This document shows positions 21,666 through 26,921 of a stretch of 37,447 nt of DNA, in pieces. Under the pieces are notes generated by a model. That model made no database searches. It worked only from the letters and a program-made list of their open reading frames with translations, and was not told the origin of the DNA. Source of the stretch: an uncultured Candidatus Saccharibacteria bacterium (GTDB lineage Bacteria; Patescibacteriota; Saccharimonadia; Saccharimonadales; Saccharimonadaceae). The position numbers were made by a program, and so were the translations under genes. The stretch is taken from NCBI GenBank assembly GCA_947305705.1, contig CAMZEB010000008.1, positions 1 through 37,447 of the forward strand. Direction: 5' to 3'. Within the stretch, counting starts at the first letter, position 1; each line of letters starts with the position of its first letter.

Positions 21666-21694
21666 TTGACGAGTAAGCATAAACGTGATATCTT
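21666..21694 (+). promoter_or_regulatory. Strong sigma70-type promoter behind obgE
   Basis: TTGACG (21666-21671), 17-nt spacer, TATCTT (21689-21694). The predicted start at about 21701 is exactly where the closing stem of the RNA below begins. Confidence 0.7.
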
Positions 21695-21700
21695 TATCTC

Positions 21701-21856
21701 AAGCTGGTACGCTCTGCGGGGTTCCACTGAGAAAATGTGGACAGTGTGGAGACTAGATACAAAAATAAAAACAGCGGATTAAAACAAACATATGCTTTGT
21801 GCCCCTGGGTGGGCGCGTAGCAGCTTTTAAAAATCTCCTCGAAAGAGGAGATTTTT
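21701..21856 (+). ncRNA. Candidate structured small RNA, unidentified
   Basis: No credible ORF covers this gap. The predicted transcript starts with AAGCTGGTACGC (21701-21712), which pairs with GCGTAGCAGCTT near 21815-21826 over 12 positions with one G-G mismatch. Further in, CGGGG (about 21717-21721) can pair with CCCC of GTGCCCCTGG. Inside lie a small hairpin (TCCAC/GTGGA) and a long A-rich single-stranded stretch. A 12-bp terminator hairpin follows. It lacks the conserved GGAA-tip of SRP RNA, the CCA end of tmRNA and the RNase P core. 6S-like function is possible but not shown. Confidence 0.6.
21829..21856. terminator. Bidirectional intrinsic terminator
   Basis: AAAAATCTCCTC (21829-21840), loop GAAA, GAGGAGATTTTT (21845-21856): a perfect 12-bp stem with A and T tracts on both sides. 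It serves the RNA on the plus strand and the large leftward gene that ends at 21859. Confidence 0.9.
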
Positions 21857-21858
21857 AT

Positions 21859-24800
21859 TTATCTTTGTCCGTATTCGATATTATCGACCCTGCGGATTAA
21901 CTGAGCTAACTGTGGGTTTTCTATTTCTTCGCCACGAATGAAACGATTATAGCTGGAAGTGAATAATGCGCGCATCGTAACTTTTTTTCTTGTCTCTGGC
22001 GATATGATTTTCTTCCCAGTTAAGCGGAATGTAGTAGCCATGGACATATTCAGATTATCACCGAAAATCTTGCGCATTATCGGCTCTAAATTCTTTTCAT
22101 TCCTTATATATATACTACTGCTAATACTGTCGATCAACATAGCATCGGCCATGTCTGCCCCTAGATTATCGGCGATTGCGGAGTAGTATTTTATCGATAT
22201 AATCCCATTATGGTCTTTAGAGTCACTAAGAAGACCGGCGCATACTTTTGGACCGCCCGCAAAAAACTCTTTCACGGACGCTATCAAAATGTCTTTTGAG
22301 ATATTTGAGGTTGAGAGAGGACTTATATTAATATCCTTAATATAGCGACCTAGACGCTCAATGCAATGTCTTGCACTATCGCAATCGCGAGCAGTTAGCT
22401 GCTCAGTTATTGTGCCGGTTATTTGGCTGAGAGTTGGTGGCGGTGCAATCTGGTGTTCTTGGCAGAAAATTGCAACATTTCGTTCATCATCAGAGACATA
22501 ATCAAGATTATTGTTAAATTCTTCCTCAATTAAGGAGTTAATAGCTGATATTACTCTTTTTTTACAACGCGAACCGCTCATTTCGTCGCTACGAAGATAG
22601 GCTTGCCATAAATCTTGTTTATCTCTATCAATATGACTAGCGATGTCGCTAGATGATGTGTCGACCGATAATGCTTGATAGCTACCGTTGTTATCGATAA
22701 TAATAAACCCGGTTGGAAATACGAATGTTTCGTCAATATTCTCGCCAAAGAGGGAATGAGAGAAGTCGCGCATTATTCTTTTTTCTTCCGCCAAAACACG
22801 CTCTTCGGGCAGGGAATTAAGTATTGTATTTTTCTGGATTTCTAGCTGGCTAATATCACTTTGCAATGCTTCGCGATCATCTTGGCAAAGGCTAGTACCA
22901 AAACGCGCCAAGGTGTCGTAATATTTTACCCTAGCGTTGATATACTTACGCATACCGGATATTATATGTTCTAATTGTTGAGCATAATCATCTGACTGTT
23001 CGTTATTTTTTGGCGCTAAGATGTCGAGCACTTGTTCTTTTGCTTGCTCGGTACTTAAGTTGTTTTTTAGTGTAAAGAATATACCTTCGGTTTGTTTTAT
23101 TATTTGTAGGTTTTCTAGAAATTGTCTATTAGATCCGTGCATTTTATCAAAAACACGTGTTTGAATTTCCTTTGGCGCATGTAAGCTACCTTCCTTAGCT
23201 AGCTCCGAACTAATATCGCCGAGTATTGTATCATGTAACACACGTATCGCATAATCGAAACTATCATAAAGACTGCCGGGTAGATTAAATCTAAGGCTTT
23301 TGGTTACGTTTTTGAAACTAAAATGGTTTTGATTGCGCTTAACGTATTCGTATTCATTATCGCTAAGGTTACTATGTTCTATGACATATTCTTTTTTTAA
23401 CTTTTCATATTCTGAAACGAAATCGCGTTCAAAAAAAGTATTCGAATCTTTTTCGCTTAGATTGTAAAATAGTTGATTCCGACGAGCGAATGCTTTCTTG
23501 GTTTTTTGATAGAGAAGGCTTTCCAGAACGCCTTCATCATCGATAATATCTTGCATATAGTTATGGCTTTTAATCCTGCTGGCGCTAGCACGGTAGCTCA
23601 TCGCTATTTCATAGAGTTCGTCTTTTTTATCTATTTTATTATTCTTAATATCGTACATTATCTGTTCGATTTTGGGGCTATTGGCGGGTTGCTGCTTTAT
23701 GGCTGAAAGTTTTTCTAATGTATCGTATTCTAAAATAGATAAATCAGCAAACATAAAAGGAGCATTTATGCCTTTGACGATATTTCTTGACACAGTAGTT
23801 ATATTGTCTATTTCTTCTGCTACGTTTTTGAGACCACGCTCTTGATAGTCGACTATATCATTATTTTTATTTACCTTCTTCTTGCACTCATCGGCCTTAT
23901 TCTTTCGTTGCTCTACCTTTCTTTTTGCATTTCTTATATCATCTTTACTGCCATTATTGGCTTTGAGTGTATCGTACTCTTTTTGCGCCTCTTCTAGCTC
24001 TTTTTGCGCCTCTTCTAGCTCTTTTTGTGCCTCTTCTAGCTCTTCTTGTGCTTTTTCTAGCCCATCTTCACATTTTTCTCGAACCGCCAATTTTTTGATG
24101 TAACCTTTATATTTACTGAGCCTATTTTCATTATGGTCATTGCTTTTAGCGGAGAGCCTATCATATTCTTCTTCATTATTTACTAAGGCCATCAAATTAT
24201 CAGTCCGTCTTCTGTATTTATTGAGCCGATTTTCTGCACTATCTATATCATCTTTACTACCATTATTGGCTTTGAGTGTATCGTACTCTTTTTGCGCCTC
24301 TTCGAGCTTTTCTTTATATTTTTCTAGGGTAGCCAAATTGCTGATTCGCTTTTTAGCTTTTTTGAGCTTTTCCTGATCGCTACAATTTTTCAAGAGCTCG
24401 TCGTACTCTTTTTGCGCCTCCGTTAACTCTTTGCCGCACTGTTCTAGGGTTATTTGATAGTCGTCTTCTTTGACAATCGGTAAAGATTCATCTTTGTATA
24501 GTTTATAGTAATAAAAGAGGCTGGAACGCCTGCTTGTATATTTCGATTGTGTTTTTACAAAATCAGACGAGATAGCTTTTAGGGAGTCTTCATCTAAATC
24601 AGGTTTAAGTTGGGCGATAAAATTTACTCGTAATGTATCGGGGGAAATATTTTGGTTATGGCTACGATATTCAGCCTGCAGCTCGCCGCATTTAGCTAAA
24701 AACTCTTTTTGTATATCAGAGCGGACTGCTAGCTCTGCGCGCCCTCGTAGAAGGCTGCGGAATTCGGAGTTTGCTTCTATGAGCCGCGAGTAAAAATCTT

Positions 24801-25344
24801 CGTCACTTTCGGCACCCTCTATGATCTCGCTAACAAATTCGTGATGCAATTTATTTTGAAAATCTGAGTCGAAATTAAAAGTCTTTCCTCTGACTTCCAA
24901 GCCATGCGCGTCGATTGAGCCGAATCGATAGGCTAATGATCCAGGCTGCGGTCGCTGAACAGAAAAAAGGGTAACCGGATCATGAGCGATATGCGAAAGC
25001 AAAATTTTTTGCTTTGTGTGTAAATTATCGTAATATGACGTTGCCTCGCTTTTTTCTAGAGATGATAAAATACTAACTCGTTCTTTACATTCGCTAAGTT
25101 GCTTCTCGGCATTCCGAACCTCTTTCATACTACCATTAGCATCCCGAAGACTATCGTACTCCTTTTGCGCCTTCGCTAATTCCTCTTGCGCCCTTGTTGC
25201 GGAGACCTCGGCTCTAATCGCATCTAAGCTGTCTTTGCCGCGCAACAATTGCGCATCAAAAAGGTATCGTTTTTCGGATACATCATCCGCTAGAGTCTCG
25301 AATGATCGGATTGAATCATCGCTATCCTTCGGCGTTTGTTCCAT
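21859..25344 (-). CDS. Large coiled-coil protein with internal repeats, unknown function
   Basis: An 1161-residue soluble protein with no signal peptide or membrane helix. It has four copies of a charged coiled-coil module built around AQKEYD, usually followed by NGS: near residues 53-95, 305-345, 345-390 and 440-490. Between copies 3 and 4 lie tandem heptads (EEAQKEL). The parts between and after (about 100-300 and 500-1161) are mixed alpha-helical with no recognised domain; there is no Walker motif as in SMC proteins. It begins 2 nt after the stop of the 524-residue gene, so the two are co-expressed and may be partners. Confidence 0.75.
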   Translation of the reverse strand: MEQTPKDSDDSIRSFETLADDVSEKRYLFDAQLLRGKDSLDAIRAEVSATRAQEELAKAQKEYDSLRDANGSMKEVRNAEKQLSECKERVSILSSLEKSEATSYYDNLHTKQKILLSHIAHDPVTLFSVQRPQPGSLAYRFGSIDAHGLEVRGKTFNFDSDFQNKLHHEFVSEIIEGAESDEDFYSRLIEANSEFRSLLRGRAELAVRSDIQKEFLAKCGELQAEYRSHNQNISPDTLRVNFIAQLKPDLDEDSLKAISSDFVKTQSKYTSRRSSLFYYYKLYKDESLPIVKEDDYQITLEQCGKELTEAQKEYDELLKNCSDQEKLKKAKKRISNLATLEKYKEKLEEAQKEYDTLKANNGSKDDIDSAENRLNKYRRRTDNLMALVNNEEEYDRLSAKSNDHNENRLSKYKGYIKKLAVREKCEDGLEKAQEELEEAQKELEEAQKELEEAQKEYDTLKANNGSKDDIRNAKRKVEQRKNKADECKKKVNKNNDIVDYQERGLKNVAEEIDNITTVSRNIVKGINAPFMFADLSILEYDTLEKLSAIKQQPANSPKIEQIMYDIKNNKIDKKDELYEIAMSYRASASRIKSHNYMQDIIDDEGVLESLLYQKTKKAFARRNQLFYNLSEKDSNTFFERDFVSEYEKLKKEYVIEHSNLSDNEYEYVKRNQNHFSFKNVTKSLRFNLPGSLYDSFDYAIRVLHDTILGDISSELAKEGSLHAPKEIQTRVFDKMHGSNRQFLENLQIIKQTEGIFFTLKNNLSTEQAKEQVLDILAPKNNEQSDDYAQQLEHIISGMRKYINARVKYYDTLARFGTSLCQDDREALQSDISQLEIQKNTILNSLPEERVLAEEKRIMRDFSHSLFGENIDETFVFPTGFIIIDNNGSYQALSVDTSSSDIASHIDRDKQDLWQAYLRSDEMSGSRCKKRVISAINSLIEEEFNNNLDYVSDDERNVAIFCQEHQIAPPPTLSQITGTITEQLTARDCDSARHCIERLGRYIKDINISPLSTSNISKDILIASVKEFFAGGPKVCAGLLSDSKDHNGIISIKYYSAIADNLGADMADAMLIDSISSSIYIRNEKNLEPIMRKIFGDNLNMSMATTFRLTGKKIISPETRKKVTMRALFTSSYNRFIRGEEIENPQLAQLIRRVDNIEYGQR
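23976..24060 (-). repeat. 21-bp tandem repeats inside the coiled-coil gene
   Basis: About four head-to-tail copies of a 21-bp unit encoding EEAQKEL (minus strand), two of them identical in sequence. Next to it, a stretch near 23940-23995 recurs almost exactly near 24248-24303 (the TLKANNGSKDD region). The near-identity at DNA level points to recent slippage or duplication. Confidence 0.8.
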
Positions 25345-25346
25345 TA

Positions 25347-26921
25347 TTATCCTAGGATATTATTAATGCGTCCAGCACGCTTAGCTATTTCTATCAAGAA
25401 GGAGCGATCGGGACTGTCGGCACTAATTTCCTGCCCAATGTTCAAACTCATTATTTCGGCCTCACATCGCAATAACCAATCTTGTAACTTAATCATTGTA
25501 TCGTTTTTCTCGATATCATAATAATGACTTTGCGAATCTGTCCAGGCTTCGCTTCTATTGCGGGCCTCTTCATAAAAATCTTCACTAACCGGACGCTTCT
25601 TACCATAAAGCTCCTTCGCTTCAGAGCTGCTCATATTAACTGCTTCGCAAATATATTTCGACATATAAGATTGGGCGATTCTAAGATGGCTGAGCGTTGC
25701 TTTCTGAGCTTCGTCTACATCACTAGCATCTATACAAGAAATTGTTTCGCCAATAGAAGTCGCCAAAGCAACCAAATTACGCGCATTAGGGCGACGATTT
25801 TTGAGAACTTCTTTGGATATATAATTTGTCGTAAGTGATTCAGTCAATGTGCCACGTTCAACGTCAGTATATCCTAACGGGGTGCCTACGCGAAATTCAT
25901 TTGTAGCACCAGCGATATGCCTGTATCCAACTTTCTTTCCGTTTTTCTTGATTGGCGCAAAACGGTCGAGTAGACGACTACTGATTGGTTGAACCCAAGC
26001 CACCGACTGTCTCCTTTCTTTTGCCTCTTCGGCATCAATGGCGTCGAATTTAGCGTAATAGAAGCACAGATAATTGATTTCTTCTATGTCGCCATAAGTG
26101 TATGGGCCATATGCAAAAGTATATCTTTCGTCGCCAAATGATTCTAAAAATTCATCTACTGTAATATCTTCAACTGGAATGCCTAACATACGGCCTAACT
26201 CCTCTTCAGAATATGGAATATCGTCGTAAGAGAGACGGTTGGGCTCGGTGACCATATCTTTGTATGAGGCTATATGCACATCTTTATGTTCATCTAGATA
26301 GATTGCTTTAATATCGCATGGTAAATCTGTTCTGACTCTGCCTTTTTCGTATGCGTTATATTTGGTCGTGATGTAATCAAGGAATCTTTCTTGACTTGGC
26401 GACCAGGAACGTTCTAGTCTGACGCCACGGCGTATTTTGCTGACAAGATTAGCAATGTCTTCTATTTTCTGATTAATGATGGACTCATCTGAGTCGTGCA
26501 CGTAATTATAAACTGATTCGGCTTCGGTCGGCGTCATTACGTCGCTTACTAGGCCATAACGGTCGAGTGCATCTGATAATTTTTCCTGTCTCTCGGATAA
26601 TTCTCCTCTTTCGCGTAGCGCTCCAATTATTTCGTATTGTTCTAAGTGCTCAATTTCGCGAAGCGAAGTGCTAATTTCCTCGATTCGTGATTGTGGAAGA
26701 AAGCTTTTAGCGCAAGTCAGAGAAGCTTCTAGCGTATCGGAAGTCTGTCTTTGATACTGATCATAACTAAGCTCTGTACTCTCGCTGGGTGCTATTTCGG
26801 CGTTGGCTTCTTCAGAAACGCCGAAGTCGCTCATGAGCTGACTCCAATCGTCGTTAGTATTGTTCAAAGAAGTGTCGTTGTCGCCGGGGTTAATTGGCGA
26901 GTTGATCTTATGGTCGTCCAT
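25347..26921 (-). CDS. Unrecognised 524-residue protein, partner of the coiled-coil protein
   Basis: A soluble protein with an acidic, Asn/Ser-rich and probably disordered N-terminus (about 1-55), then mostly helical sequence. Noticeable segments are EISTSLREIEHLEQYEIIGALRERGELSERQEKLSDAL in a helix-turn-helix-like pair near 80-120, an aromatic stretch FAYGPYTYGDIEEINYLCFYYAKF near 270-290, and a C-terminal helical domain. No catalytic motif or family was recognised. It leads the two-gene operon with weak AAGGA 12 nt before the ATG. Confidence 0.7.
   Translation of the reverse strand: MDDHKINSPINPGDNDTSLNNTNDDWSQLMSDFGVSEEANAEIAPSESTELSYDQYQRQTSDTLEASLTCAKSFLPQSRIEEISTSLREIEHLEQYEIIGALRERGELSERQEKLSDALDRYGLVSDVMTPTEAESVYNYVHDSDESIINQKIEDIANLVSKIRRGVRLERSWSPSQERFLDYITTKYNAYEKGRVRTDLPCDIKAIYLDEHKDVHIASYKDMVTEPNRLSYDDIPYSEEELGRMLGIPVEDITVDEFLESFGDERYTFAYGPYTYGDIEEINYLCFYYAKFDAIDAEEAKERRQSVAWVQPISSRLLDRFAPIKKNGKKVGYRHIAGATNEFRVGTPLGYTDVERGTLTESLTTNYISKEVLKNRRPNARNLVALATSIGETISCIDASDVDEAQKATLSHLRIAQSYMSKYICEAVNMSSSEAKELYGKKRPVSEDFYEEARNRSEAWTDSQSHYYDIEKNDTMIKLQDWLLRCEAEIMSLNIGQEISADSPDRSFLIEIAKRAGRINNILG

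Follow-up and report, generated by a model that had tools for sequence, protein, structure and literature searches.

The window analysed here, a stretch of 37,447 nucleotides from an uncultured Candidatus Saccharibacteria bacterium, carries behind obgE the gene for an RNA that belongs to no described family and apparently represents a new RNA class, though its mode of action may be of a known type. Comparison with divergent relatives leaves us highly confident that this is a real, stand-alone structured RNA with the predicted fold set out below. For its identity and a trans-acting, protein-binding role, taken jointly, we estimate a probability of about 0.5; the role on its own is put forward tentatively, at somewhat less than even odds. 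The locus comprises the following features:

21666 to 21694, plus strand: sigma-70-type promoter, with a -35 box TTGACG at 21666-21671, a 17-nt spacer and a -10 box TATCTT at 21689-21694.
21701 to 21712, plus strand: 5' strand of the closing stem P1, AAGCUGGUACGC, starting at the predicted transcription start; 11 of its 12 positions pair with 21815-21826.
21712 to 21751, plus strand: helix S1, in the window's form CUCUGC (21712-21717) with GUGGAG (21746-21751), paired by inspection.
21718 to 21722, plus strand: 5' strand of the inner helix S2, GGGGU, pairing with 21801-21805.
21723 to 21741, plus strand: additional hairpin UCCAC/GUGGA, which marks the long form found in the window's genus and the sister genus g27.
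21754 to 21798, plus strand: A-rich, mostly unpaired segment AAAAAUAAAAACAGCGGAUUAAAACAAAC, with invariant or nearly invariant A/C columns in alignments A1, A2, A4 and A5.
21801 to 21805, plus strand: 3' strand of S2, GCCCC, pairing with 21718-21722.
21808 to 21814, plus strand: GGUGGGC, the 3' side of the internal loop that separates S2 from P1, identical in all sequences of alignments A4 and A5.
21815 to 21826, plus strand: 3' strand of P1, GCGUAGCAGCUU, with pairing and covariation with 21701-21712.
21829 to 21862, plus strand: intrinsic terminator, with a 12-bp stem, a GAAA loop and a T-rich tail; a terminator recurs after most of the relatives' RNAs.

The promoter begins nine bases past the obgE stop. 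It matches 9 of 12 consensus positions, with TG before the -10 box, and the transcription start predicted from it, about seven bases past the -10 box at approximately 21701-21702, is the first base of P1. An earlier note, made from the sequence of the window, had proposed this arrangement of TTGACG, 17 nt and TATCTT with a start at the first base of the stem, which was confirmed to the base, as was the perfect 12-bp terminator that it placed after the closing stem (hairpin AAAAATCTCCTC-GAAA-GAGGAGATTTTT at 21829-21856; 12/12 pairs). Promoters matching at least 9 of 12 consensus positions were found in 77 of 109 members, compared with 13 after shuffling. The end of the -10 box of the best promoter-like site lay 6-9 nt ahead of the start of the RNA core in 90 of the 109, and a terminator followed the RNA in 92, compared with 6 of 109 when shuffled. 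Indeed, promoter position, stem and terminator recur jointly in the members examined. The window's genus has TTGACG as its -35 box, other families have TTGACA, and most short forms of the window's own family have TTGTG or TTGCG, a family-specific promoter shift in which the 17-nt spacing is kept.

No conserved downstream gene was found, the genes 3' of the RNA differing between genera, and cis-regulation is therefore unlikely. Taken at the level of sequence, the evidence strongly supports a stand-alone transcription unit with its own promoter and terminator. The presence of obgE beside the RNA is incidental and mostly confined to the window's genus and one sister genus. On the other side, tRNA genes often lie directly 3' of the RNA gene in relatives (L052, L057, L093, L100, L103 and L112). 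In the window itself the RNA is followed by two long genes on the minus strand, at 21859-25344 (1161 aa) and 25347-26921 (524 aa); the 1161-aa product is rich in coiled-coil-like KxxLEEAQKE repeats, and neither product has a Pfam match.

The closing stem had been described as 12 positions spanning about 126 nt, and P1 was indeed found to have 12 positions, with 11 pairs and one G-G mismatch, over a span of 126 nt. Such a stem by itself is not rare: the two strands of the window contain 86 stems with at least 11/12 pairs, at least five G-C pairs and a span of 100-140. The coincidence of the predicted start with the start of the stem had been taken as strong evidence of a real RNA; comparison bears out the RNA, but the stem alone is not unusual, and the decisive evidence is comparative. 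Folded as a single sequence, the RNA was better than all 200 shuffles (z = -3.5), with the terminator giving much of the signal, and the core of one relative folded alone gave z = -2.2.

Since sequences within the genus are too uniform, testing the structure needs divergent members. In an alignment of 51 such members (A4), two-sided changes occurred in 8 of the 10 core pairs of P1, so that the compensatory changes whose absence the earlier note regarded as fatal to the idea are present. Two-sided cells numbered 55, compared with 15 in shuffles, none of 500 shuffles reached the observed value, and the number fell to at most 5 when the partners were slid. In a 70-member set, 568 of 630 P1 positions were paired, compared with 481 ± 7 for shuffled partners. 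A P2-type pairing of the short forms (ACGC/GCGU), which competes with P1, was rejected, since P1 wins on covariation.

In the window, the inner helix S2 joins the GGGG after P1 to the CCCC before the invariant strand; elsewhere it takes the form of GCGGCG/CGCCGC, GGCUCU/AGAGCC, GGGUUCA/UGAACCC, GGCGCG/CGCGCC or GGGUUU/AAACCC. In an independent test its pairing score was 848, compared with 706 ± 19 when partners were shuffled among sequences. A second set, of 70 members with 54 distinct helices, scored 1202, compared with 736 ± 27 for shuffled partners; since its helices were picked as best pairings, the former test is the fairer. The substitution patterns in these alignments thus show both P1 and S2 to be maintained by compensatory change. 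Within the genus a hairpin P3 (GUGCCC/GGGCGC) seemed plausible, but it was contradicted by divergent members, in which CCCC pairs with a changing 5' partner and GGUGGGC stays fixed.

The S1-type pairing scored 474, compared with 379 ± 28 for shuffled partners (70 members). It occurs mainly in the window's own family and is absent from basal members, in which S2 runs straight into the A-rich loop; S1 therefore appears to be lineage-specific and, if both helices form, can cross S2 as a pseudoknot. The extra hairpin UCCAC/GUGGA is likewise missing in the forms of 75-96 nt, and the basal members, of approximately 75-90 nt, consist of two helices and the A-rich loop. In the basic form shown by these comparisons, P1 leads into an internal loop whose 3' side carries GGUGGGC, S2 follows, and the apical loop is rich in A.

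The helices vary freely in sequence, whereas the two unpaired elements, GGUGGGC and the A-rich loop, are kept. Every sequence of A4 (51) and A5 (20) has GGUGGGC unchanged, although this invariance is somewhat overstated, since some of the relatives were found with search motifs that include it. It is the only invariant unpaired stretch that is not A-rich, and the A-rich loop (AAAACAAACA..AAAACAAA) is conserved alongside it.

The RNA core (21702-21824) is present in 33 of the 37 genomes of the window's genus, the four without it being incomplete assemblies, and is 85% invariant within the genus. A covariance model built from the genus (R1) reached other genera of the family. Model R2, built from the genus and these other genera, returned a single copy each from almost all genomes of the family, together with the first members in other families, and R3 added further families. 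Besides the window's own family, the carriers are families f2, f6, f7, f8, f9, f12, f14, f16, f17, f18, f19, f23, f25, f26, f31, f37 and, weakly, f20; the RNA thus occurs in at least 17 families of the order (its own and at least 16 others), with one copy per genome. Eight families of the order gave no match even with laxer filters, which may reflect loss or divergence, and no member from other orders came up, whether in five further genomes of the class or in the remainder of the phylum sample. Carriers that have a name are 'Candidatus Saccharibacteria'; TM7i and oral taxa 348 and 352 are among them. The suggestion that the RNA might be lineage-specific therefore holds at the level of the order. 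Records from Geodermatophilus, Paeniglutamicibacter and Variovorax failed the fold filter as members, and a motif match in viral_contigs was rejected as a chance match in a GC-rich contig.

None of the 4227 families of Rfam 15 gave a match over the gathering cut-off in the window or in 14 relatives, and permissive Rfam scans returned chance-level matches only (the lowest sub-threshold E value at the window was 0.13, and no match was credible). That the RNA is not SRP RNA, tmRNA or RNase P RNA, as had been supposed, agrees with these scans. ARAGORN, which looks for tRNA-like ends and a tag reading frame, found no tmRNA in the window, and the RNase P RNA (RF00010), present in 10/10 genomes, is encoded separately in the window's genome at C17:20-231, where it is cut by the contig end. 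The likeness to bacterial SRP RNA (RF00169) lies in the size range, the rod-like P1/S2 layout and the asymmetric internal loop. However, SRP RNA has a GNRA loop and the domain IV motif, and neither the domain IV motif, with its bulge, nor the GNRA tetraloop is visible in alignments of the Saccharibacteria RNA. RF00169, the small bacterial model and the only SRP model run genome-wide, had no match in the window's genome, in 10 genomes or in 116 genomes of the phylum Patescibacteria. The Ffh M domain (PF02978) was found in 0/8 Saccharibacteria genomes, compared with 14/14 controls, and the complete genome of the relative G188 showed no SRP-type GTPase G1 motif. As neither the M domain nor the GTPase motif turned up in these genomes, the RNA is no SRP RNA in disguise, and a replacement of SRP RNA by partner logic is rejected. 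On these three counts, Saccharibacteria appear to be SRP-free.

LOOT (RF03000) is comparable in being conserved, structured and of unknown or little known function, but stand-alone RNAs of this type have no sequence or structure match with the Saccharibacteria RNA in Rfam 15. In one relative a LOOT RNA (75.5 bits) lies at L074 597-714 on the minus strand, approximately 1.1 kb from the RNA. SAM-II, preQ1 and others contain H-type pseudoknots whose third loop is A-rich. S1 and S2 of the window's own family would form a pseudoknot with such an A-rich connecting strand; the Saccharibacteria RNA differs, however, in that basal members lack S1, P1 surrounds the entire structure and no gene is regulated in cis. 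The searchable literature, which does not extend to subscription papers, contains no earlier report of a small, structured or pseudoknot RNA in Saccharibacteria, and a prior description is possible.

Several other explanations of the locus have to be weighed. An inverted repeat arisen by chance in the gap between obgE and the gene that follows can practically be dismissed: stems as large as this one abound in the window, but covariation refutes the idea, and order-wide conservation and fixed promoter spacing also speak against it. The proposal that the RNA could be a divergent 6S RNA found no support. Both are stand-alone, stem-closed, terminator-ended bacterial RNAs with one copy per genome, and an analogue that binds RNA polymerase might be suspected from the long closing stem of the window's long form, from a putatively abundant RNA with a strong predicted promoter, and from the fact that RF00013 has no match in the window's genome, the window RNA included, with positive controls. 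However, 6S RNA is about 180 nt long (range 160-200) and forms a long rod with a central promoter-like bubble, features that are lacking in a class of 75-125 nt whose basal members, of approximately 75-90 nt with an A-rich apical loop, are too short for a promoter-mimicking rod. Nor do the A-rich loop and the invariant GGUGGGC have any 6S counterpart, and we consider a divergent 6S RNA or a functional 6S analogue very improbable. The nested P1 and S2, the A-rich loop and the own-family pseudoknot form a layout like that of compact aptamers, with a strictly conserved internal-loop strand. A ligand-sensing aptamer acting in trans, or a former riboswitch, is nevertheless improbable, given a terminator that does not overlap P1 and the variable genes downstream.

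An antisense-type sRNA would use GGUGGGC (or GGGUGGGC) as its seed: pairing with GCCCACC sites of mRNAs or rRNA would alter their translation or stability, and the helices would only stabilise and present the seed. A sole invariant non-A-rich stretch would fit this, as would a stand-alone, terminator-ended gene like those of many bacterial sRNAs. However, G188 contains the complement of GGUGGGC approximately 100 times, close to what chance predicts for a 7-mer; GCCCACCC is absent from the part of the rRNA that was inspected, and no obvious shared target emerged from this one complete genome. A crude pattern, which is weak evidence, also found no Hfq-like motif there, and we regard such an sRNA as doubtful. 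Equally, the RNA might be the partner of an adjacent protein. A small protein with a confirmed RRM domain and a Gly/Arg-rich tail is encoded beside the RNA in 17 of 37 genus representatives, among which family f17 is represented. The gene is divergent and approximately 200 bp upstream in 15 (on the opposite strand in L077, L109, L052 and others) and nearby downstream in 2, and it stays close in L090 and L098, where the gene order changed. The protein may bind the RNA where it is present. However, the window's genome and two others of its genus lack the gene, as do genera g1, g27, g38, g29 and g33, which keep the RNA with the same A-rich loop; an obligate partnership is thereby ruled out. Since ligA, the RRM gene, the RNA and a Mur ligase gene form a syntenic block, the linkage may be inherited gene order only, and a partnership with the RRM protein in many genera is unlikely.

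A trans-acting, protein-binding role remains our best guess because the unpaired GGUGGGC and A-rich loop are fixed while the helices around them change. A transcript of about 125 nt plus terminator would act in trans, its P1/S2 rod presenting GGUGGGC, together with the A-rich loop, as a putative protein-binding surface. The bound protein would be a regulator or a component of the machinery for translation or transcription, and the RNA would serve as a scaffold or sponge and not as a riboswitch or message. Against the protein-binding reading, the RRM protein, the only candidate partner found, is missing from the window's genome and several genera that keep the RNA, and another RNA or a small molecule could bind the invariant unpaired bases just as well.

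Since the RNA is present as a single copy in at least 17 families, with covarying helices and a strictly kept GGUGGGC and A-rich loop, it is likely to serve a basic function. It is rather unlikely that it is a core ribonucleoprotein RNA, that is, an essential housekeeping RNA unique to the order that does the work of other RNA-protein machines; if true, such an RNA would serve bacteria that appear to be without SRP and 6S RNA. Saccharibacteria are the best-cultured Patescibacteria, and genetics is now possible in them. No conserved RNA regulator has been described for Saccharibacteria in searchable papers.
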